Below, piece by piece: positions 2,209 to 46,500 of a stretch of DNA of 57,294 nt (its first letter is position 1; each line of letters starts with the position of its first letter). Both the position numbers and the translations under genes were made by a program. A model generated the notes under the pieces. It ran no database searches, was not told where the DNA came from, and saw only the letters and a program-made list of their open reading frames with translations. The stretch covers positions 1 through 57,294 of the forward strand of contig CALAMQ010000101.1 of the NCBI GenBank assembly GCA_937925815.1, written 5' to 3'. The DNA comes from an uncultured Granulosicoccaceae bacterium (lineage in GTDB: Bacteria > Pseudomonadota > Gammaproteobacteria > CALCKW01).

Positions 2209-2535
2209 ATGAGCACCAAGAACCTCAACCGCTCCGCCATCATCGCCGGCTCACTCGCACTGGCTGTCAGCCAAATTGCTGTCATTCAAACTGCCGCAGC
2301 TGCAAGCAAAGAAAAATGCTACGGCGTGTCACTGGCTGGTCAAAATGACTGTGCGGCGGGCCCAGGCACAACCTGCGCTGGCACGTCCAAAGTTGACTAC
2401 CAGGGCAACGCTTGGACACTGGTACCAGCAGGCGACTGCGAGAAATTCGGCGTCGCAGAGACCATGGCGCAATTCGAACTGCCTGGCGACCGTGTTGGCT
2501 CACTCGAAGCACTCGACCGCGACCTCCCAGGTTAA
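2209..2535 (+). CDS. bufA: Bufferin precursor, DUF2282 family (BufA)
   Basis: This 108-residue protein has a secretion signal (residues 1-32, ending Ala-Ala-Ala-Ala) and a mature part with four cysteines at 37, 48, 56 and 77, in the DUF2282 pattern KCYGV...NDCAAG...TTCAGTS...[13 protein letters not shown]2282 proteins are known as bufferins: ribosomally made, exported peptides whose cysteines are modified by a DUF692 (MNIO) enzyme and which sequester copper in the periplasm (Caulobacter work). GGAG precedes the ATG. The next three genes, at 2611, 3473 and 4273, are the expected enzyme, partner and DoxX protein. Metal specificity in this organism is inferred. Confidence 0.88.
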
Positions 2536-2610
2536 TTAACGCAAGCCCTGAACTGCGATCCGGACTCGCCGGATCGCGTTCAATAAAAATCAGAGTGGAA
2601 CACCTCTAAC

Positions 2611-3486
2611 ATGCCTGTCACCACCCCCCCCATCACTCGACTGCCACAACGCGCCGGTGTGTGCTTCAAGCACCAACACTATGACGGCATCGTGCAAGAT
2701 CAACCTGATGTCGGCTGGTTTGAGGTTCACGCTGAAAACTACCTTGGCGCCGGCGGCAAGCCGTTTCAGATGCTGAGCTGGATTCGCGAGCGCTACGCGC
2801 TCTCAATACACGGGGTTGGCTTATCCATTGGGTCGCACAACGGCCTAGATGCCAACCACCTCGCACGCGTCGCAGCCCTGGTTGAGCGCTTTGAGCCGCA
2901 CTCCTTCAGCGAACACTTGGCGTGGTCAACCCACGACAACCGCTTCTACAGCGACTTACTGCCGGTGCCTTACAACCGCGAAACCGAAGACACCGTCTGC
3001 GCGCATATCAACCAAGTGCAAGACACCCTCAAGCGGCCCATGCTGCTAGAGAACCCCTCAAATTACCTCAGCCTCAACACCAGTACGTTGTCGGAGGCAG
3101 AACTGCTAAACAACATCGTGCGGCGCACCGGCTGCGGTCTATTGCTGGACGTTAACAACGTCTACATCTCCGCGCGCAATATTGGCTACAGCGCTGAAGA
3201 CTATATCCGCTCACTGCCGACAGACCGGATTGGTGAAATGCACCTCGCCGGGCATTTGGTTGACGACGCAGACCCAGCGGACCCACTGTTGATCGACACC
3301 CACGACCGCGCCGTGTGCGATGACGTCTGGGCACTCTACGCCTTTGCGCTCGAGACCTGCGGCGCGACGCCTACGCTGATCGAGTGGGACAGCAATTTGC
3401 CCGAGTGGGCAGAGCTCGCAGCCGACATGCAACGCGCTGAGTCGCTGCTCAACCCGTCAGAGACTGTGCGCTGTGCCAACGCTTGA
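2611..3486 (+). CDS. bufB: DUF692 multinuclear non-haem iron oxidative enzyme (BufB)
   Basis: This 291-residue protein is a DUF692/MNIO TIM-barrel enzyme, seen in the motifs FEVHAENYLG near residue 38, LLENPSNYLS near 147, LLDVNNVYIS near 180 and MHLAGH near 210. These carry the His, Glu, Asp and Asn ligands of the multi-iron site. Family members convert precursor cysteines to heterocycles, 5-thiooxazoles in bufferins. It follows bufA by 75 bases, and its end overlaps the DUF2063 gene by 14 bases, implying co-translation. It should act in the cytoplasm before bufferin export. Confidence 0.9.
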   Translation: MPVTTPPITRLPQRAGVCFKHQHYDGIVQDQPDVGWFEVHAENYLGAGGKPFQMLSWIRERYALSIHGVGLSIGSHNGLDANHLARVAALVERFEPHSFSEHLAWSTHDNRFYSDLLPVPYNRETEDTVCAHINQVQDTLKRPMLLENPSNYLSLNTSTLSEAELLNNIVRRTGCGLLLDVNNVYISARNIGYSAEDYIRSLPTDRIGEMHLAGHLVDDADPADPLLIDTHDRAVCDDVWALYAFALETCGATPTLIEWDSNLPEWAELAADMQRAESLLNPSETVRCANA

Positions 3487-4276
3487 GCGCTTCCAACAAC
3501 AAACCAGCGACGCTCTGCTAGACAGCGCCACCGCATGTCCGGAGGCCGTCAGTGGTGACAAACGCGAACGCCGCTTTGATGTTTACCGCAACAACCGCGC
3601 TGTCAGCCTGATTGAAAACCTCCAGGCGCTCTACCCCGCCGTTGCGCGCTTGGTAGGCCAAGAATTTTTCACCGCCGCCGCGCGCGCCTACATAGACGCC
3701 CACCCACCCACGGGTCCGGTGATGGCAGAATTTGGCGAGGCCTTTGGCGACTTCATCGCAGCGTTGTCTGGCGCAAAAAGCATCCCGTACATACGCGACG
3801 TTGCGCGCATTGAATGGTGTCGCAACGCGGCCTACAACGCCTCGGACGCACCGGTGTTGTCATTGGAGGCGCTCGCAAGCGTGCCACCCGACACGCTGCC
3901 GGAACTTCGCCTAGATCCGCATCCGGCGCTGCACACCGTCACATCGCGCTGGCCGTCAGGCAGTATCTGGGCGGCGACGCAGAGACCCGCTGGCACGGAC
4001 GCACCCGCTGTCGACATGCGCACCGGCGAGCAAATTGCCATCACCCGTCCCGCCTGGGACGCCGACGTTCACATCCTCACGCAGCAGAGTGCGCAATTCC
4101 TGCACGCTCTGACGCAAGGCTCGACCATTGGCGACGCCGCAGCAAGCCAACTCGATCTCGACCCGGCGTTCGACGCCGGGCCTCACTTAGTTCACGTTCT
4201 GTCGCTCGGCGCGTTTACCGCCATTGCACAGACTCTCACCGCCGACCCCACGGCAACACCACAGGTTTCACCATGA
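3473..4276 (+). CDS. bufC: DUF2063 family partner protein (BufC)
   Basis: The 267-residue protein starts at a GTG inside the end of bufB and reads PTLERFQQQTSDALLD, the usual N-terminus of DUF2063 proteins. An FDVYRNNRAVSLIENLQALYP segment follows near residue 35, cut here only in describing it, and marks the N-terminal helical domain. Members pair with DUF692 enzymes and are thought to act as the precursor-recognition partner. The older label of putative DNA-binding domain is not convincing in this context. Its stop overlaps the DoxX start (ATGA). Confidence 0.85.
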   Translation: MPTLERFQQQTSDALLDSATACPEAVSGDKRERRFDVYRNNRAVSLIENLQALYPAVARLVGQEFFTAAARAYIDAHPPTGPVMAEFGEAFGDFIAALSGAKSIPYIRDVARIEWCRNAAYNASDAPVLSLEALASVPPDTLPELRLDPHPALHTVTSRWPSGSIWAATQRPAGTDAPAVDMRTGEQIAITRPAWDADVHILTQQSAQFLHALTQGSTIGDAAASQLDLDPAFDAGPHLVHVLSLGAFTAIAQTLTADPTATPQVSP

Positions 4277-4830
4277 TCCGCCTACTCACATCTGCCCACG
4301 ATTCTGTTTTCAACGCTCTGCAAACCCATGTCGGACCGTGGCTGCCCGGCCTGCTCGCGCGCTTCACCTTCGCCGCCGTGCTGCTGGTCTACTACCTCAA
4401 CTCCGCCAAGACCAAAGTTGGCGAGGGCATAACGGGATTCTTTTCGATTGATGACGGCGCCTACTTCCAAATGTTGCCCAAAGTGATTGAGCAATTTGGC
4501 TACGACGCGACCCAAGTACCGCTGTTCCCGTACAAACTTATTGTGTTTGCCGGCACCTATGCCGAATTTATTTTGCCGTTATTGATTGTCGCGGGCCTGT
4601 TCACCCGTCTGGCGGCGCTGGGCATGATTGGTTTCGTATTCGTGCAATCGTTCGTGGATGTCACCGGCCACCATGTCGATGCCGAGACGGTCGGCGCCTG
4701 GTTCGACCGCTTCTCCGACTCAACCATTCTCGACCAACGCACCCTGTGGGTCTTCTTGCTGGTCTACCTCGTGATCTACGGCGCGGGCAAGCTCTCACTC
4801 GACGGTTTGCTGCTCGCCAAGCGGCGCTGA
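4273..4830 (+). CDS. bufD: DoxX family membrane protein (BufD)
   Basis: The protein has 185 residues with four predicted transmembrane helices, at about residues 20-38, 85-110, 115-135 and 155-175, in DoxX order. The ATG at 4273 overlaps the bufC stop; the longer upstream frame is a shadow of bufC. DoxX proteins recur as the fourth gene of bufferin operons, where their role is unclear (membrane redox or maturation support has been suggested). A strong terminator follows 24 bases downstream, so this is the last gene of the operon. Confidence 0.85.
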   Translation: MIRLLTSAHDSVFNALQTHVGPWLPGLLARFTFAAVLLVYYLNSAKTKVGEGITGFFSIDDGAYFQMLPKVIEQFGYDATQVPLFPYKLIVFAGTYAEFILPLLIVAGLFTRLAALGMIGFVFVQSFVDVTGHHVDAETVGAWFDRFSDSTILDQRTLWVFLLVYLVIYGAGKLSLDGLLLAKRR

Positions 4831-16373: not shown

Positions 16374-17207
16374 CTAGCGCTGTTTCGCCGTAGGGTAGAC
16401 GCCCAAAATCTTAAAAGACTCGATGTAGTGATCGAGTTCTTTGAACGCTTGGGCGACGTTCTCATCACGCGGGTCGCCTTGTATTTCAGCGTAGAACTGT
16501 GTGGCGGTGAATGAGCCGTCGAGCATGTAGCTCTCGAGCTTGACCATGTTGACACCGTTGGTGGCAAAACCGCCGAGCGATTTAAACAAGACCGCTGGAA
16601 TATTCTTCACCTTGAAGATGAACGACGTCATGGTGTTGCCACAGCGCTCGGGCTCGTTCGGTTTATTGGACATTGCAAGAAAGCGTGTGGTGTTGTGGTC
16701 GCTGTCTTCGATGTCGCTAGCAAAGGTTTCAAGGCCATAGATCGAGCCGGCAAATTCTGAGGCCAGCGCCGCAACGGTTGGCTCGCCGCGCTCGGCAATC
16801 GCGCGCGCGGCTCCAGCGGTGTCGACACCCGTGACACCTTTAATGTCATGCCGCTTGAGAAACGCGCGGCATTGCCCAAGCAAGACCGGATGGCTGACCG
16901 CTTCGGTGACAGCATCTAACGTCCCGCCGGGCACACCGAGCAAGGCAATGCGAACGCGCACAAAAGCTTCGCCGACGATATGCAAGCCCGACTCTGGTAA
17001 CAGTTGATGTATGTCAGCAACCCGGCCGTAGGTCGAGTTCTCCACTGGCAGCATCGCAAATGCAGCATCGCCCATTCTCACCGCATCGATTGCGGCTTGA
17101 AAGCTGTCACAGGGCAAGACGTCGAGGTCGGGGAAAGCCTGGACGCAGGCTTCGTGGGAGTAAGCACCGCGCTCACCCTGAAAAGCCACTAAACCGGTCT
17201 GTTGCAC
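16374..17207 (-). CDS. pheA: Prephenate dehydratase, monofunctional
   Basis: PheA converts prephenate to phenylpyruvate for phenylalanine synthesis. The 277-residue protein has the periplasmic-binding-like catalytic domain (LPVENSTYGRV near residue 53 and the catalytic Thr-Thr-Arg-Phe in HNTTRFLAM near 171). It is followed by an ACT domain (SLGGFATNGVNMVKLES, YMLDGSFTATQFYAEIQGD) that normally gives feedback inhibition by phenylalanine. The chorismate mutase domain found in the E. coli bifunctional enzyme is absent. The start codon is GTG. It stands alone, with no aro or tyr gene adjacent. Confidence 0.92.
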   Translation of the reverse strand: MQQTGLVAFQGERGAYSHEACVQAFPDLDVLPCDSFQAAIDAVRMGDAAFAMLPVENSTYGRVADIHQLLPESGLHIVGEAFVRVRIALLGVPGGTLDAVTEAVSHPVLLGQCRAFLKRHDIKGVTGVDTAGAARAIAERGEPTVAALASEFAGSIYGLETFASDIEDSDHNTTRFLAMSNKPNEPERCGNTMTSFIFKVKNIPAVLFKSLGGFATNGVNMVKLESYMLDGSFTATQFYAEIQGDPRDENVAQAFKELDHYIESFKILGVYPTAKQR

Positions 17208-17345: not shown

Positions 17346-17840
17346 TCAGGTCGATCCGCAGGCCGCGCATGCGCTGGCACACGGGTTTTTCGCAGCGCAA
17401 GGGTTGGCGGCGGCACAGGGATTGGCACCACATGCTGCGCCGCACGCTCCACAAGCTCCACACGCCGCGCAAGGATTTGAAGCGCATGGGTTGGCCGCAG
17501 CGCAGGGATTGGCCGCTGCGTATTCGAGCTGAATTTTTTCGACGTAGGCTGTCAACGCCGCCAACTCACGCGACTGCCAAGGCAGCGGCTCTGCCGCCAT
17601 CGGCACAATCATGCAAAGCTGCACCATGCTCTCAGCATCCACTTCATCGAGACCTGCAAGATCAAATGCCATCTTCACAGAGTGAGGATACGCTTGCGTG
17701 AATGTTGCGTTGTACAAGTTCATATCCGCATGGCAGGAAATACACGCCAAGCCGTTCGAACTCAATGAGGTGTCAGCAAACAACGACTCGCCAAGCCTCT
17801 CCATCGCCTCGCGACTGGCGACATACTTGCGCTCACCCAA
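17346..17840 (-). CDS. c-type cytochrome domain with Cys-rich tail, in frame with the Cys-rich gene upstream
   Basis: From the TTG at 17840 this frame encodes 164 residues. They comprise a class I cytochrome-like domain with haem motif CISCH (17730-17744), the usual preceding LGESLFADTSLSSNG, and a likely distal Met in CMIVPMAAEPLPW. A tail of some 50 residues follows, with 12 Cys in NPCAAANPC-type repeats. The frame has no stop upstream until the TGA at 18117, and beyond that TGA the same frame is the secreted Cys-rich protein starting at 18527. The domain on its own has no signal peptide, although haem attachment at CxxCH happens in the periplasm. It therefore most likely began as the C-terminal part of one 393-codon gene (17346-18527). 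An independent start at 17840 is possible but weak. Confidence 0.7.
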   Translation of the reverse strand: MGERKYVASREAMERLGESLFADTSLSSNGLACISCHADMNLYNATFTQAYPHSVKMAFDLAGLDEVDAESMVQLCMIVPMAAEPLPWQSRELAALTAYVEKIQLEYAAANPCAAANPCASNPCAACGACGACGAACGANPCAAANPCAAKNPCASACAACGST

Positions 17841-17889
17841 GGGACGAACAACCTTGTCTTGCGGGATTTGATTTCCCGCTGCAGCGCAG

Positions 17890-18240
17890 GGGTTGGCACC
17901 GCAGGCGCCGCAAGCCCCGCAGCCGCCTTTGGCTGCGCACGGGTTCTTAGCCGCACACGGGTTGGCACCGCAGGCCGCGGCGCAAGCCCCACACGCACCG
18001 CAACCGCCACAAGCCCCACAGGCGGCCTTGGCCGCGCAAGGGTTCTTGGCAGCACACGGGTTGGCACCGCAGGCCGCGGCGCAGGCCCCACACGCACCGC
18101 AACCGCCACAGGCCCCTCAGGCAGCTTTAGCAGCGCACGGGTTCTTGGCAGCACACGGGTTGGCACCACAGGCAGCGGCACAGGCGCCGCATGCACCGCA
18201 TGCACCGCAACCGCCACAAGCCCCACAGGCGGCCTTGGCT
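17890..18240 (-). repeat. Tandem 99/108-bp repeats in the Cys-rich gene
   Basis: The anchor CAACCGCCACA (plus strand) recurs at 18001, 18100 and 18208, periods of 99 and 108 bases, with a fourth diverged copy near 17915. Each unit encodes about 33-36 residues of CGACGGCGAC and NPCAAKNPC type. The copies at 18001 and 18208 share TGT (Cys) where the middle copy has TGA (18117-18119). Confidence 0.85.
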
Positions 18241-18527
18241 GCGCATGGGTTTTTAGCGGCACACGGATTCTTGGCTGCGCAAGGATTCGCACAACAGGCG
18301 CTGGCGCAAGGATCGGCACAGCAGTCATTCTCTGCAGCACAGGGGTTCTTGGCCGCACAAGGGTTCTTGGCGGCACACGGTGTCGCGCCGCTCGATGCCG
18401 TGCACGCAGCGAGAACAATGGTGTCGCTTGCTTCAGCGGGACTGATTAATGCCAACTCGCCAACGCCATAACTCGCGCCCAAAGCAAACAGCACCGATGC
18501 TGTGATTTTGTTGAGCTTCATTGTCAT
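18117..18527 (-). CDS. Secreted Cys-rich repeat protein (ends at an in-frame TGA)
   Basis: Read conventionally, this is a 136-residue protein with a Sec signal peptide (residues 1-33, ending SPAEAS) and a mature part almost wholly of NPCAAK and CGAC repeats, with 21 Cys. AGAGGA lies 9 bases before the ATG. It is clearly homologous to the protein at 19565-19990: both start with ITASVL-type signals and have (I/V)LAACTAS at the mature N-terminus. The gene stops at TGA 18117-18119, which replaces a TGT Cys codon conserved in neighbouring repeats. The frame then continues for 256 sense codons into the cytochrome domain. I do not recognise a characterised family. Dense Cys suggests metal or thiol chemistry in the periplasm; this is inference. 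Confidence 0.8.
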   Translation of the reverse strand: MTMKLNKITASVLFALGASYGVGELALISPAEASDTIVLAACTASSGATPCAAKNPCAAKNPCAAENDCCADPCASACCANPCAAKNPCAAKNPCAAKAACGACGGCGACGACGACAAACGANPCAAKNPCAAKAA

Positions 18528-18658
18528 CGCAACGTCCTCTAATAAGATGGTTTCTCGTAGCCGCCGTCTACAACCACACGTTCAACACATGCAGAAATAT
18601 AATGCGACTCATCCTCTTATCGTCGGACAAATTTTGAACGCTGACCAGTGCGCGATGA

Positions 18659-18670
18659 CACGTATACGTG
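18659..18670. promoter_or_regulatory. Perfect 12-bp palindrome CACGTATACGTG
   Basis: The palindrome lies in the 208-base gap between the His-rich gene (ends 18736) and the Cys-rich gene (starts 18527), 131 bases upstream of that start. It could be a regulator site for a promoter internal to the locus. Confidence 0.35.
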
Positions 18671-18735
18671 ATATCCACTACGGTTCTTAACACCCACTGA
18701 CAGTGCTAAAACCGCTGTAGCACCGCAATGCTGCG

Positions 18736-19476
18736 TTATTCCACCGAAGCAAGTGCCGCGTCGACGCGAGCAATTTGCTCTGACACAGAAATGGTGATTT
18801 CGCCGGGCACCTCCAGCTCGCGGTGCTCAAACACACTCTTACCGGGGTTGGCCTCTCGCCACAGCTCAAAGCACTGATCTCGGTGAACAAGCAGTGACGC
18901 AATTTCTGCACTGAACAAACACATCACCGCCGATATCCAACGGTTGGTTGGCCAACTTGGATTGGCGTGCTGGATCGCGAAATTACCCAAGTGAGGCACC
19001 ACGTGCTCCGCCGGTACGTAGTGTTCAGCGGTTACCCACTGGTTGGTGCTAAACAGACCGAGCATATGTCCATCTCTGTCCATTGATATCGCTATGAGGT
19101 GGACTGTTTTGCTGGTCGCGTTGGCCATGTCACAGGACATCGCCCTGTCTTCGCCCATCATTGATGCGAGGTAAGGTGTGCGAAAAAAGGTGTGAAAATG
19201 CCCGTGCTCACCAGTCTCGCCGCGGTGAGCGTGGTAGTAATACTGACTGCCGCAACGGCTGTCGAGGACATCATTTTCGGGGTAATGGTTAAATTCGTAA
19301 AACGTGCCCTGGCCGCGCAGCATCTCACCCACAAGATTTAATCCGCCGCGCTCTAACACTTCAGTACAGCGTTGTGCTTCCTGCCCAGCAGTTTGCATTG
19401 CTTGCAATCTTGGCAATGGCAACAGAGTCAGATCCGGCAGTTCAACCGCTGGAAAGTTCACGATGGCATCTCGCAT
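18736..19476 (-). CDS. Conserved protein with His-rich motif (possibly DUF6969)
   Basis: This 246-residue protein has no signal peptide or membrane helix and is probably cytosolic. Its most striking segment is YHAHRGETGEHGHFHTFFR at about residues 81-99, with His82, 84, 91, 93 and 95, preceded by EFNHYP (His64). This could be a metal site. From memory it resembles the uncharacterised family DUF6969, with moderate certainty. It lies between two paralogous Cys-rich secreted protein genes on the same strand, 88 bases after one and 208 before the other. A role in making or loading those proteins is a reasonable guess but unproven. Confidence 0.75.
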   Translation of the reverse strand: MRDAIVNFPAVELPDLTLLPLPRLQAMQTAGQEAQRCTEVLERGGLNLVGEMLRGQGTFYEFNHYPENDVLDSRCGSQYYYHAHRGETGEHGHFHTFFRTPYLASMMGEDRAMSCDMANATSKTVHLIAISMDRDGHMLGLFSTNQWVTAEHYVPAEHVVPHLGNFAIQHANPSWPTNRWISAVMCLFSAEIASLLVHRDQCFELWREANPGKSVFEHRELEVPGEITISVSEQIARVDAALASVE

Positions 19477-19564
19477 TTTGTGGATTTCTTGAGGCTAATG
19501 GCAGCCAGTGGTGTTAGCAAGTACTAAACGCGGACACAACTGACCGCATTTAGTGTGTACAGGT

Positions 19565-19990
19565 TTATGAACCGCTGCACGCCCCGCAACCGGCCTTGGC
19601 AGCGCACGGGTTCTTGGCCGCGCACGGGTTGGCCCCGCAAGCCGCGCCACACGCGCCGGCACACGGGTTCTTGGCAGCGCACGGATTGGCGGCGGCACAG
19701 GGGTTCGCAGCACAAGGGACTGCACAGCATTTGGCCGCACAAGGATCAGTGCAATCTTCAGCTTCCGCCGCGCACGGGTTCTTGGCCGCACACGGGTTGG
19801 CTGCAGCACATGGATTTTTAGCAGCGCATGGGTTTTTCTTGGCAGCGCATGGGTTGGCGCCGCACGAGGCCGTACAGGCTGCGAGGATAATGGTTTCATT
19901 CGCTGACGTGTTTTCAGCCAAGACGACACCGCTGCTGACACTTGCGCCAATGGCAAGCAGGACAGACGCGGTGATTGTGTTCATTTTCAT
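19565..19990 (-). CDS. Secreted Cys-rich repeat protein, stand-alone paralogue
   Basis: The 141-residue protein has a signal peptide (about residues 1-25, ending VVLAEN) and a mature part with 21 Cys in NPCAAK, NPCAAA and CGAC repeats and almost no other side chains. Short breaks (EAEDCTDPC, KCCAVPC) match the order ENDCCADPC, SACCANPC in the paralogue at 18117-18527, so the two share one template. Unlike that gene, it ends normally (TAA) with no cytochrome extension. It is first in the minus-strand locus. The 297 bases upstream (19991-20287) hold no gene and should contain the promoter. Function unknown; periplasmic metal binding or a post-translationally modified peptide are possibilities. 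Confidence 0.82.
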   Translation of the reverse strand: MKMNTITASVLLAIGASVSSGVVLAENTSANETIILAACTASCGANPCAAKKNPCAAKNPCAAANPCAAKNPCAAEAEDCTDPCAAKCCAVPCAANPCAAANPCAAKNPCAGACGAACGANPCAAKNPCAAKAGCGACSGS

Positions 19991-20287: not shown

Positions 20288-22606
20288 TCAATGCTTGCGG
20301 CGTTCGTACTGGTCGATCATGTGCCACAGCACGCCCGGGGTTGCCGGCATGTCGATGTCAGGCTCACCATAGCGCCGCATCAGTGCGTCAGACAGTGCAT
20401 TCATCACTGCAGGTGCAGCGGCGATGGTACCGGCCTCTCCAGCGCCCTTGATGCCGAGCGCGTTGGTAGTCGAAGGCACATTTCGGGTTTCAAAATGCAC
20501 CGGCGGCAAATCTGCTGCGCGCGGGAGTTGATAATCCATCAGTGACCCCGTCACCAACTGCCCGGTTTCGTCGTAGACCACACGCTCAAACAGACACTGG
20601 CCTATGCCTTGGACCACGCCGCCAACCACCTGTCCCTCGAGCAGCAACGGGTTCACCGTCACGCCAAAGTCATCGATAGCTGTCCACTTGACCAACCTTG
20701 TAATGCCGGTGGCCGGATCCACTTCTATCTCACAGACGTGCGTGCCGTTGGGGTAGGTGGCCTCGGCTTGTTGCACGTCGCCAATGGCCGTGCGAGCCGA
20801 TTCATCCGGGGCCGACGCCGCCACGGCTGCGAGCGAGATTGCACGGTCGGTTCCGACCACTCGTGCGCTGCCACCGTGGAGCTCGATATCGGCTTCTGCG
20901 GTTTCGAGTTGCTCGGCTGCCAATTGACGCACGCGTTTCAACAACTCCCGCGCCGCCACTTGCACCGATGCACCACCGAGCGGCACAGAGCGAGAGCCAC
21001 CCGTGCCACCACCGGTGGCGAGCTCGTTGGTGTCACCTTGGCGAAGTTCGATGTCCGTGTAGTCAACACCGAGTGCCTCTGCTGCAATTTGGGCATAGGC
21101 GGTTGCATGCCCTTGGCCGTTGCTCTGCGTGCCAATACGCAACGAAAAGCCACCGTCGAGCCCGAGCGACAAGTGCGCGGGCTCTGATCCGGCAAACGCG
21201 CAGGCTTCGATGTAAGTGGCCATGCCGATACCGCGAAAACAACCACGCTGTTCAGCTTCGTGAGCGCGCGACTCAAATCCCTGCCAATCGGCGCGTTGCA
21301 TTGCAAGCGCCATGTGTTCTTTGAACTCGCCTGTGTCATAGAGGCGACCGCCTGCGGACTTATACGGCAATTGGTCGGTTGAGATCATGTTTCGCCGGCG
21401 AATCTCATCTGGCGAGAGACCGAGATCCCGTGCGCAGGCGTCCACCAAACGCTCGAGTGCGTAGGTTGCCTCCGGTCGGCCCGCACCACGGTAAGCATCA
21501 GTTGGCGTGGTGTGGGTGTAGACCCCACGGATATTGGCCGCGAGCGCCGGGATGTCATAGATGCCCGTCGACATCGAGACGCCGAGGTAAGGTATGAACG
21601 GCCCAAAGGCGTTGAGGTAAGCACCCATGGCCGCGATCAAATCAATGTCGAGCGCGAGAAAACGCCCGTCTGATGTCATCGCCATGCGCGCTGTGACCAA
21701 ATTGTCTCGACCGTGCGCATCTTGGACAAAGTGCTCACCGCGCTCGCAGGTCCAGCGCACCGCTCGGCCGAGATCGCGCGCGGCATTTAGGCACAGCGGG
21801 TATTCACGATAGCAAAATACTTTGGTGCCAAAGCCGCCACCAACATCCCCGGTGGTTACGCGCAGCGCGCCAGATTCAATTCCGAGCGAATTGACAAGCG
21901 CGTCACGCATACCGTGCACACCCTGAGACGGCACTTCCATGTCAAAACGACCGGTGTCAGCATCAAACTGTGCGAGGCAGGCTCGCGGCTCCATGTAGTT
22001 GCAAATCAGCCGATTGTTGACCAGTGAGATGGTGGTGACTCGGTCCGCCGATTTGAATGCGGCATCGGTGTCCGCGCGGTCGCCGACAAACGATTCAAAT
22101 GCAAGGTTGGTCCCAGCGTCTGGATACACCAGTGGCGCGTTTGCCGCAAGGGCGTCCGCTGTGTCAGCGCACACTGGTAAGTCGTCGTATTCAACGTCAA
22201 TAAGTGCCGCTGCTCGCTTTCCAATGTTGACTGAGTCAGCGACTACCATCGCCACCGCATCGCCTACGTGCCGCACGACGTCCTTGCACAGCAACGGAAT
22301 GTCGCGCCGCGTGATGGGCTCGCCAGACTTCTGCGGTATCAAAGCGGTGCACGGCAGCGCGTTGAGGTGTTCAATGTCGGCCGCGGTGTAGACCTTGTGG
22401 ACCCCTGGCAATGCGCAGGCGTCAGCGGTGTCTATTCCAGTGATGCGCGCGTGCCCATAGGGCGAGCGCAACAGCACCGCATGCAGCGCGTCGGTTTGCG
22501 CTGCCGCGTCATCGGCATAACGCCCCTGCCCCGTTAGTAGTGCTTGATCTTCAACGCGCGCCAGCGACGCGCCGAGCCCAAATTTGGGTAGAGAGGGAGA
22601 AGTCAC
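20288..22606 (-). CDS. Xanthine dehydrogenase family molybdopterin-binding subunit
   Basis: The 772-residue protein is the large, Mo-cofactor-binding subunit of an aerobic molybdenum hydroxylase. It has the N-terminal RVEDQALLTGQGRYADD segment, GGGFGTKVFCYREY near residue 255, AYRGAGRPEATYALER near 373 and KGAGEAGTIAAAPAVMNAL near 730 with the catalytic Glu. The AYRGAGR loop marks a form II or xanthine/aldehyde type, not the AYRCSFR of true CO dehydrogenase. The usual FAD and 2Fe-2S subunit genes are not next to it, so its partners are elsewhere or it is an orphan. The GTG start has AGGA 7 bases upstream. The substrate cannot be told. Confidence 0.88.
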   Translation of the reverse strand: MTSPSLPKFGLGASLARVEDQALLTGQGRYADDAAAQTDALHAVLLRSPYGHARITGIDTADACALPGVHKVYTAADIEHLNALPCTALIPQKSGEPITRRDIPLLCKDVVRHVGDAVAMVVADSVNIGKRAAALIDVEYDDLPVCADTADALAANAPLVYPDAGTNLAFESFVGDRADTDAAFKSADRVTTISLVNNRLICNYMEPRACLAQFDADTGRFDMEVPSQGVHGMRDALVNSLGIESGALRVTTGDVGGGFGTKVFCYREYPLCLNAARDLGRAVRWTCERGEHFVQDAHGRDNLVTARMAMTSDGRFLALDIDLIAAMGAYLNAFGPFIPYLGVSMSTGIYDIPALAANIRGVYTHTTPTDAYRGAGRPEATYALERLVDACARDLGLSPDEIRRRNMISTDQLPYKSAGGRLYDTGEFKEHMALAMQRADWQGFESRAHEAEQRGCFRGIGMATYIEACAFAGSEPAHLSLGLDGGFSLRIGTQSNGQGHATAYAQIAAEALGVDYTDIELRQGDTNELATGGGTGGSRSVPLGGASVQVAARELLKRVRQLAAEQLETAEADIELHGGSARVVGTDRAISLAAVAASAPDESARTAIGDVQQAEATYPNGTHVCEIEVDPATGITRLVKWTAIDDFGVTVNPLLLEGQVVGGVVQGIGQCLFERVVYDETGQLVTGSLMDYQLPRAADLPPVHFETRNVPSTTNALGIKGAGEAGTIAAAPAVMNALSDALMRRYGEPDIDMPATPGVLWHMIDQYERRKH

Positions 22607-22670: not shown

Positions 22671-23003
22671 TTATTCGGGCACGATGCGGTAGACCGCCTG
22701 GGGCGCTGACGCGGCAAGCAAGTCAATGCAGGTCTCGCCGCCAACTTTAATCCGCTGCGCCGCGCGCGCGCCTGGGTTCTCGTCAATGGCTTGGATGCGG
22801 TGTGGATCGGCGTACATGCTTGCGCTCACACAAAAATTGTCAGCGGCAGCCATAGTCGTCTCAACACTGGGATTGCGGGCAACGAAAGTCGGAACGTGCG
22901 ACACAACTATGCGAATGGTCGCGGTGCCAGAGCTTTCAGCCTTTACTGACATCGAGAATCCAAGCGCCAGAACAACACAAAACAATATTCGCCAAGCGGA
23001 CAT
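22671..23003 (-). CDS. Small secreted protein of unknown function
   Basis: The protein has 110 residues from the ATG at 23003, chosen over an upstream GTG because GCGGAGG lies 7 bases before it. A signal peptide covers about residues 1-23 (ALGFSMSVKAES). The mature part contains two Cys (NFCVSAS and GETCIDLL) that could form a disulphide, and reads as a small beta-rich domain. I do not recognise the family. It lies between the molybdenum hydroxylase gene and a hydrolase gene on the same strand, with no clear shared function. Confidence 0.6.
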   Translation of the reverse strand: MSAWRILFCVVLALGFSMSVKAESSGTATIRIVVSHVPTFVARNPSVETTMAAADNFCVSASMYADPHRIQAIDENPGARAAQRIKVGGETCIDLLAASAPQAVYRIVPE

Positions 23004-23153
23004 AAGCGTCCTCCGCTGCACTGTGTTTCATCGAGGAAACATTGTCGCGAAGGGGTCGCTTGAAAAATGTGATGCAGCTCGCGCCACAGCGCTCATGCTG
23101 CGTGACGCAGTCCACAAGTTTGCGCGCTAGCGGGCCGCAGCTGCACTGATCGG

Positions 23154-43593: not shown

Positions 43594-46500
43594 TCACGCC
43601 ACTGATTGAGCGCCATCATCGCGTTGGTCGGACAGCTTTTTGGCTTGACCAATCCAGTCATCGCGATCAATGCGCTGTCGCGAGCCAGGGATCTTGTCTT
43701 CGAGCCACTTGATGTCGGTATCACTCAGCGCGACCAACTGCTCGAATTGATAGATGCCGAGTTCGTTCAGCTCCCTTTCAATTTTCTCGCCAATGCCAAC
43801 GATGACTTTGAGGTCATCAACCTGGTCCGGGCGGCTTTCAAATATGCCAACCTTGGATTGCGGATTGATGAACATCATATTGGCCAAATCGGAGCGCACC
43901 ACTGCCTTGCCGGCACGCACCCGAAACTTGATATCCGAGACTTCGGGAATTTCAGGCAGGCTGTCCGCTTTGTTGCGCTCAGACTCCAGCATCGCCTCGA
44001 GTTCCACAATTCGCGCCAACAGATTCTGGCCCGCCTTGCGGCGCTCTTCCGAAAGCATCGCTTCCAGACGGCGAATGCGCTCGCGCAAGTGAAGATCATT
44101 ATCACTCATGGTCTCCAGATCGCTTTGCATTTTCTCGAGCTCATTCTCAAGCGCGGTATTGCGCGCTGCAGACGCTGCAAGATCAGCCTCAGCACTTTCA
44201 AGCTTTGAGATCAAATCACGCTTTTCCAAGTTCAAAGTTTCGCGCTCACCCTCCGCATCCTTGAGCTCGCGCTCAAGTGTGTCAACGCGTTGCGCCGCCA
44301 ACTTATGATCCGTGGATTTCGCTTGCAACGCGTCGCGCAAGTCGCGGATCTCACGTTCGAGCTCGGCCTGCAAATCTGCACCGGCTGACACTTGCGCAGC
44401 TGCTTCAGCGTTTTGCGCTGCAGCTTTTTCAATCACGCGTTCGAGTTCGCGCAGCTTGTCTGACTGCCCTTTGATCGAATCATTCAACGCGCGATTGTCA
44501 GCCGCAAGCTTGTCACGGTCCTGTTTCAAAGCATCAGCTTGCTGGCGAGCGTCATCGAGCTCGCTTTGCTGCTTCTGGGCTGCCGCCTGCGCTGAGGCAA
44601 GGGCCCGCTCCGCGTCATCAGCGCGCTTCGCCGTTGCCGCGCCTGCGTCCTGTGCACGGTTGTGTGCATTCTCAAGTGCCGCGAGCTTTTGCGACGCATC
44701 ATCGAGTGCAGCCTGGCGCTGGGCACTTTCCTGCTCAGCCCGATCAGCACGGCGCTGGGCCTCGCTGAGCGCTTGTTGCGACCGTGCGAGTTCCTTCTGG
44801 GCTTCCTCGTGCGCGCGTTGGTTGTCTCGCAAAGCAGATTGGTACTGTGCAGCGTCACGCTCACGGGCCTGCTCAAGCGCCGCCGTTTTCTGAGCGCCGT
44901 CCTCAAGCGCTGCTTGGCGTTGAGCACTTTCCTGCTCGGCACGATCAGCACGTCGCTGGGCGTCGTTTAGCGCTTGCTGCGACCGGGACAGTTCCTTTTG
45001 GGCATTCTCATGCGCCATCTGGTTGTCACGCAACGCAGCTTGGTGCTGTGCCGCGTCGCGTTCGCGGGCCTGCTCGAGAGCCGCTGCTCTCTGGGCACTG
45101 TCTTCTAATGCCGCCTGGTGTTGCGCACTTTCCTGCTCGGCGCGATCAGCGCGTCGCTGGGCGTCATTCAATGCCTGCTGTGTGCGGGCAATTTCCTGAT
45201 TGGCATTGTCCACACTGCGCTGGCTTTCGTGCAGGGCCGCCTGAGTTTGCGCCGCATCACGGTCAGCCTTATCAGCCCGGCGCTGCACTTCGGCTTGGTT
45301 TTCACGCTGACGATTGAGTTCGTCTTCAGCTCGCTCAGCGCGACGCATCGCCGCGTCCAACGCGCTCCGCGTCTCAGCCACTGTTTGATCAGCCTGCTCA
45401 GCGGCTTCACGTGCCCGCGCCAATTCGTCTTCGCGCTTCTCCACCTGCCGTGCGGCAGCGGCGAGCGCTTCAGCGCGCTCGGCAAGTTCACGTTCAACAT
45501 CTTCCACACGCTTCTGAGAGTTATTCAACGCGTCAGCATGACGCGCCAATTCGTCTTCAGCTTGGGCTTTTGTGTCGCGCGTCTGATCGAGTGCAGCTTG
45601 AGTTTGAACGATATCGCTCTCGGCCTGTTCGGCACGTTGCAACGCATCATCTAGTGCGCTCTGCAACTGCGCTGCGTCTTGTTCAGCACGCTCAGCGCGG
45701 CGCTGGGTGTCACCGAGCTCCTCGCGGGTGCCAGCAAGCGCTTGATCGAGTTCACGCGCGGCCGCTTCTTGGCGTTCAACCGCCTTTGCTAGCTCCGCAG
45801 CACGCTGTGACGCGGCCTCTTTGTTCTCGGCAAGACTCTGTTTGAGATTGGCGATTTCATTGGCTGCCACCTTGGCATCAGAATCCCGCTCTGCAAGTTG
45901 TTGCGCGGTTTGAGCTGCCTGTTTGGCATGTTCCTGCACAGCTTCTTCGAGGCGAGCAGACAGTGCTTTGAGTTCATTTTCAAGCGCTTGACGCTTGCGA
46001 TCGAGCGCTTCGTTTTGGGCATTGGTCGCGGCGACTTGATCACGCACATCGGTCAATGCCGCTTCAAGTCGCTGCCGATCAGCTTCACTGCCGTCCAAGC
46101 TTGCCTTGAGTTCGTCGGCGAGCGCTTGCTGTGCATTGAGTGCGGAGGCGAGTTCATCAGCGTTTTTGCGGTGATCTGCTTCGGCTGCTTGCAACGCGTC
46201 TTGAAGCGCAGCGATCTGCGTGCTCAACGCCGTACGCTCAGCTTCACTCTGACCCAGCGCGTCACCTTTTTGCGAAGCGGCAAGTTGCGCTTCGGCGATT
46301 TGTCGCTCGAGCTCAACGCGGCGGCTCTCGGCATCAGCGAGTGCGAGTTCACCTGCCTGAACTGCTGAGCGCTCTCGCTCAACTTCGCTTTGCAAGGCCG
46401 ACACACGGTCTTCAAGCGGTCCTATTTTGCCCTCAGATGCGTCGAGTTGATTTCGCAAGTCAGCAATGTTGCTGTCTTTATCTTGTAGATTGCGCTCAGC

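Follow-up and report, generated by a model that had tools for sequence, protein, structure and literature searches.

We analysed a 57,294-nucleotide stretch of DNA from an uncultured Granulosicoccaceae bacterium (contig CALAMQ010000101.1; hereafter the window) and found in it a three-gene unit in which two genes for exported cysteine-repeat proteins accompany the gene for a histidine-rich protein of DUF6969 (PF22308), a Pfam family of unknown function. This DUF6969/Cys-repeat gene set is widespread in bacteria and apparently undescribed. The best explanation of our results is that DUF6969 and the Cys-repeat proteins are a pair resembling a ribosomally synthesized and post-translationally modified peptide (RiPP) precursor and its modifying protein, a reading to which we give a probability of about 0.45, and the set could constitute a hitherto unknown way of handling copper or reactive sulfur in the periplasm. 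As an earlier note on this DNA had reported, all three genes lie on one strand between positions 17346 and 19990; this is the minus strand, and they are transcribed in the order small NPC (Asn-Pro-Cys)-repeat protein, DUF6969 protein, NPC-cytochrome protein. The unit and its parts are as follows.

19565-19990, minus strand: small exported NPC-repeat protein, candidate precursor 1 (open reading frame and translation; matches to the NPCAAKNPC DNA pattern).
18736-19476, minus strand: DUF6969 protein of 246 residues, candidate cytosolic maturase or loader (PF22308 match).
17346-18527, minus strand: exported NPC/CGAC-repeat protein with a central SoxA/TsdA-like c-type cytochrome domain (translation; intact homologues in relatives).
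17475-17798, minus strand: SoxA/TsdA-like cytochrome c domain (PF21342 match; alignment of relatives; alignment with SoxA 1h31_A).
17896-18266, minus strand: tandem repeats of about 99 bp encoding NPCAAKNPCAAK(A/G)xxCGACGGCGACGAC... units (Tandem Repeats Finder and unit alignment).
18117-18119, minus strand: in-frame TGA at a repeat Cys position, where neighbouring copies of the repeat have TGT or TGC.

The pairing of DUF6969 with Cys-repeat genes was examined by scanning a DUF6969 alignment against 84,980 species genomes, which yielded 80 loci in Alpha-, Beta- and Gammaproteobacteria, and by calling Cys-repeat genes with a single fixed rule (an export-like N terminus, a repeated Cys motif and a sequence that is not Arg-rich). 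A Cys-repeat gene was present no more than 2.5 kb from DUF6969 in 69 of the 80 loci compared with 12 of 120 control windows taken from the same contigs (Fisher p ~5e-29), and it was on the same strand as DUF6969 in 62 of the 80. More than 570 DUF6969 relatives were returned in one scan, and cultured carriers of the set include Marinobacter, Pseudomonas, Stutzerimonas, Denitromonas and Sinorhizobium. The association was also seen in the reverse direction. The NPCAAKNPC DNA pattern, which occurs 11 times in this genome (0 times for the reversed control), had matches in 4 of the 369 genomes sampled from the class and in 7 of the 397 from the phylum; all eight other pattern-positive genomes carry DUF6969, compared with a base rate of 29/369 in the class sample, and the pattern lies about 3 kb or less from DUF6969 in seven of them, the two being on separate contigs in the eighth. 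The earlier note had named the lack of a conserved neighbourhood in relatives as grounds for abandoning its proposal, and we find the DUF6969/Cys-repeat pairing kept across three classes. It could be argued that repeats are prone to mis-assembly, and that one frame is broken here, so that we are looking at a low-complexity artefact or a chance neighbourhood of genes without joint function; with adjacency and co-occurrence tests positive in both directions, we consider this extremely improbable, and chance neighbourhood is refuted by the conservation of the gene pairing in three classes. What marks a RiPP system is that a variable precursor stays paired with a single putative modifying protein, and this is the arrangement we observe.

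The partners of DUF6969 vary between relatives. The main architecture is a signal, NPC repeats, a cytochrome domain and further NPC repeats, encoded immediately upstream of DUF6969, and a second small NPC protein often accompanies the NPC-cytochrome gene. Also among the loci, we observed an exported 179-residue family near DUF6969, cupredoxin-like by eye and without a Pfam or NCBIfam match (L154, 8851-9387, plus strand, and 13 other loci), and a VTT-domain protein fused to a mercuric-reductase-like flavin adenine dinucleotide oxidoreductase (L098, 2156-4300, minus strand, and 22 other loci). In Alphaproteobacteria and in locus L139, the NPC repeats are instead fused to cytochrome P460 (PF16694); a haem domain joined to NPC repeats is thus common to these proteins and ours, whereas the P460 domain itself is absent from the window, and to our knowledge known P460s lack such Cys repeats. 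In a divergent branch of DUF6969, to which Sinorhizobium pSymA belongs, the operon consists of a YeeE/YedE transporter, a small peptide, DUF6969 and a rhodanese, and in 12 of 13 such loci of the class the peptide that lies between YeeE and DUF6969 has SPCGL/SPCSL/NPCSL repeats at its end. Two further divergent loci have a CAATCAATC peptide and a CCGCCGCCGC (CCGCCGCC) peptide upstream of DUF6969, and in Skermanella (plasmid records) an NPC peptide is found with DUF302 and a sigma factor/NrsF pair. On Sinorhizobium medicae pSymA (L200, 7556-7996, plus strand), we noted a Pro-rich PCAAxxPCAA-repeat peptide between YeeE and DUF6969 that is absent from the record's gene table. The partner peptides differ in sequence and have in common that they are of the exported or membrane-leader type and carry regularly spaced Cys residues, usually after Pro. 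An enzyme or chaperone with Cys motifs as its recognition element should be coupled to such varied partners, and the changing Cys-repeat partners are the strongest argument that DUF6969 acts on these peptides.

The His segment described in the earlier note for the middle gene (residues 82-95) is present in the translation, with five His residues (H82, H84, H91, H93 and H95) and E90, but the protein is no orphan, because it matches DUF6969 over profile positions 2-201 of 201 (233.1 bits against a gathering cut-off of 27; E 2.9e-69). The EHGHFH motif was present in 29 of 29 family matches found without using the motif, and a further downstream His is kept in the same 29. Across a larger collection of 114 DUF6969 sequences, conservation of the six His residues and the Glu is 96-100%; this is weaker evidence because the collection was partly selected via EHGHFH. 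AlphaFold modelled a DUF6969 relative as a confident single domain (predicted local distance difference test (pLDDT) score 92.9, predicted template modelling score 0.91). Foldseek with this model gave no match in the PDB at E<=0.001, a second structure comparison (VIA) gave a best Z of 3.1, and nothing credible emerged when PDB sequences were searched with a profile. No known fold or solved relative of DUF6969 was found by structure and profile searches of the PDB, which does not prove a new fold. In an open-access library of 5.4 million papers, we found no relevant paper that mentions DUF6969, PF22308, NPCAAK or EHGHFH; subscription papers and preprint servers were outside this search.

The earlier note had offered three readings of the locus, namely a periplasmic metal buffer, an electron-carrying Cys scaffold and a modified-peptide system with the His-rich protein as the enzyme. 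The last is partly supported and appears to fit best, given a pairing that is kept with differing peptides, the export topology and the near-invariant His and Glu residues. Both Cys-repeat proteins have export signal-like N termini (in the small protein, which has 141 residues, 21 of them Cys, and NPCAAK-type repeats, a signal-like hydrophobic segment read from the sequence), and Cys makes up 14-15% of each. The DUF6969 protein has no export signal. Free thiols are oxidised in the periplasm unless protected. Because only the partners carry a signal, and because oxidation would await their unprotected Cys residues after export, we propose that modification or loading occurs in the cytosol. The His cluster of DUF6969 would coordinate one to three metal ions, and the protein would modify or load the Cys residues of the (N/S/A)PC(A/G/S) repeats before Sec export of the precursor; this topology of a cytosolic partner and an exported precursor is the same as that of MNIO and bufferins. 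The exported product would then be an unfolded periplasmic multi-thiol scaffold holding a thiophilic ligand, most likely Cu(I), or else sulfane sulfur or selenium. In an AlphaFold model of an NPC-cytochrome fusion, the NPC tails have pLDDT values below 50, and the repeats and tails are probably disordered. In the fused forms, a SoxA/TsdA-like or P460-like haem could give or take electrons at the repeat sulfur atoms; the repeats may also be an electron-carrying Cys scaffold, with a SoxA/TsdA-like haem here and a P460-like one in relatives. The periplasmic thiol-scaffold role, which we hold to be quite probable, is more certain than the maturase role of DUF6969, for which we put the odds slightly below even. 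More tentative again is the full form of the proposal, in which DUF6969 would be the first member of a hitherto undescribed class of peptide maturases, metal-dependent and of unrecognised fold. It would act independently of MNIO on the Pro-Cys repeats of exported proteins, and many Proteobacteria would thereby come to have long, modified polythiol proteins, fused to haem, in their periplasm.

Several points weigh against the RiPP-like pair. First, the automatic scan detected no Cys-repeat gene at 11 of the 80 loci, of which two are near a contig end, and none was found near DUF6969 in Azospirillum lipoferum or in genomes G089 and G212. Second, the neighbours differ by branch (YeeE/rhodanese versus bufferin, extracytoplasmic function (ECF) sigma factor and DUF302), and, because of this variation, we do not fix a ligand. 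Third, a stop codon breaks one of the precursor genes in this genome. Fourth, because DUF6969 falls in no known enzyme family and has no recognised fold, the putative catalysis is argued from conserved residues and topology, and the clustering of the His residues is read along the chain, their proximity in space being putative.

Turning to the haem domain of the NPC-cytochrome protein, its score is just above the cut-off of PF21342 (SoxA/TsdA; 27.9 bits versus 27) and below that of the SoxA equivalog NCBIfam TIGR04484 (20.2 bits versus 110; 34.4 bits for a relative). The CxxCH motif, the His of a YPH motif and a distal Cys are invariant among 21 relatives, and the cytochrome profile aligns across SoxA 1h31_A, with the distal Cys opposite a SoxA Cys. 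The PF21342 domain, CxxCH and the distal Cys together place the domain in the SoxA/TsdA class, from whose members the window protein differs in that it has one haem only, stays below the NCBIfam SoxA cut-off, is flanked by Cys repeats and lacks the TsdA Ser. TsdA works via an S-thiosulfonate on the Cys that ligates its haem (PMC4423706). In the window protein, Pro takes the place of the Ser that follows the catalytic Cys of TsdA by four residues (Cys123/Ser127), provided that the distal Cys is the equivalent of that catalytic Cys; because this Ser is not kept we do not claim thiosulfate turnover. A domain of this family with an invariant distal Cys would also suit Cys repeats that carry periplasmic sulfane sulfur (or selenium) in a role comparable to that of SoxY, where the haem would oxidatively conjugate sulfur compounds to the repeat thiols, YeeE/YedE would pass sulfur inward and DUF6969, instead of being a maturase, would be a partner that handles sulfur or metal in the cytosol. 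The YeeE/YedE, xPC peptide, DUF6969 and rhodanese operons of the divergent branch point the same way, as do the YeeE family genes near 16 of the 80 main-branch loci and the YeeE genes that separate DUF6969 from bufferin genes in L095, L100 and L104. The rhodanese and YeeE of those operons weakly resemble ExtH and YedE/FdhT, below cut-off. To the YeeE/YedE-rhodanese type of sulfur trafficking locus these operons add two components, the small xPC-repeat peptide and DUF6969, and the YeeE/SoxT papers found in our literature search report no such peptide. Since the alphaproteobacterial haem is P460-like and not SoxA-like, the presumed Ser127 position is Pro and no Sox genes were seen among the conserved neighbours, we regard a sulfur carrier as rather unlikely, if the strongest of the alternatives to the RiPP-like pair.

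Copper enters the argument through a further feature of the window.

2209-4830, plus strand: separate and complete bufferin-1 cluster with a DUF2282 precursor, MNIO, DUF2063 partner and DoxX (MNIO above the NCBIfam BufB cut-off).

This cluster lies 13 kb from the NPC/DUF6969 set, and its MNIO (2611-3486) is the only one in the genome. MNIO genes were found about 8 kb or less from DUF6969 in 8 of the 80 loci, compared with 0.4 expected. In the seven such loci that we opened (L034, L094, L095, L100, L104, L110 and L126), the MNIO has its own DUF2282-type precursor, and four genomes (G017, G127, G148 and G153) have DUF6969 and Cys-repeat genes and no MNIO. We conclude from these two observations that the NPC/DUF6969 set and bufferins sometimes travel together yet are separate systems. 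On the same grounds we disfavour the idea that the window's MNIO matures the NPC proteins, this MNIO having its own DUF2282 precursor and some DUF6969/NPC genomes having no MNIO. Neither NPC protein has a bufferin-type Pfam or NCBIfam match or an EGKCG motif in its translation, the three-gene unit contains no DUF2063 gene (that gene belongs to the separate cluster), and the coupling of a precursor to an MNIO gene by which bufferins are recognised is absent from the set. A review of MNIO precursors describes bufferin-cytochrome fusions and links to FGE-sulfatase and sigma/NrsF genes and does not mention NPC proteins (PMC12452194). The set resembles bufferins and captophorins in its exported Cys-rich precursor and cytosolic putative modifying partner, in the occasional cytochrome c fusion, in FGE-sulfatase neighbours and ECF sigma and NrsF regulators, and in that some of its loci adjoin true bufferin clusters. 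It differs in that the partner is DUF6969 and not MNIO (PF05114), with no DUF2063 partner of its own, and in its (N/S/A)PC motif in place of EGKCG or DUF2282. The set includes neither MNIO nor DUF2063, and for this reason we class it as an exported Cys-rich precursor with a cytosolic partner, not as a bufferin.

This clustering with copper bufferin gene sets, together with the high Cys content of both proteins, the predicted disorder of the tails and the sigma factor/NrsF pair in Skermanella, as known from bufferin clusters (PMC12452194), would also agree with a simpler arrangement in which plain repeat thiols bind Cu(I), Zn or Ag as metallothionein does and DUF6969 is a non-catalytic metallochaperone or sensor. 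A dedicated protein with six near-invariant His residues and a Glu, which follows several unrelated Cys-repeat sequences, exceeds what a passive buffer needs. Given in addition the oxidation that awaits unprotected thiols in the periplasm, we judge an unmodified buffer to be less probable than a sulfur carrier and clearly unlikely. As to the ligand of the RiPP-like pair, bufferin proximity and the sigma/NrsF neighbours speak for copper; YeeE, rhodanese and the SoxA-type haem speak for sulfur or selenium.

The cytochrome domain was described in the earlier note as joined in frame to the repeats, which holds only by read-through: the reading frame of the NPC-cytochrome gene (18527-17346) is broken once, by the TGA at 18117-18119, which sits inside a near-perfect DNA repeat. 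Selenocysteine at this codon was rejected, since SelA (PF03841) had no match in the genome (99% complete), with positive controls. The NPC-cytochrome homologues of relatives have uninterrupted reading frames. Because SelA is missing and the homologues are open, we conclude that the TGA reflects either a nonsense mutation or a mis-assembly of the repeat, not selenocysteine.

The genes that flank the unit are ordinary: downstream lies one for a prephenate dehydratase (16374-17207), and upstream one for a molybdopterin-binding oxidoreductase (20288-22606). Upstream of the latter, we noted a small exported protein of 116 residues without a Pfam match (22671-23021, minus strand). Elsewhere, a coiled-coil-like long open frame of at least 819 residues (44001-46458, minus strand) contains 201-bp tandem repeats at 44711-45165. 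Within the window, a PADLOC scan found no match to a defence system, no RNA elements or tRNAs were detected, and promoter and terminator predictions showed no excess over shuffled sequence.

Overall, DUF6969, so far known only as a domain of unknown function, gains a specific and testable role, namely coupling to exported Cys-repeat proteins across three proteobacterial classes. If DUF6969 does modify Cys, exported Cys-modified proteins would have a second route that does without MNIO, and DUF6969 would be a new class of enzyme. Should it modify nothing, the NPC-cytochrome fusions would still be an unusual periplasmic polythiol/haem design that links copper or sulfur chemistry.

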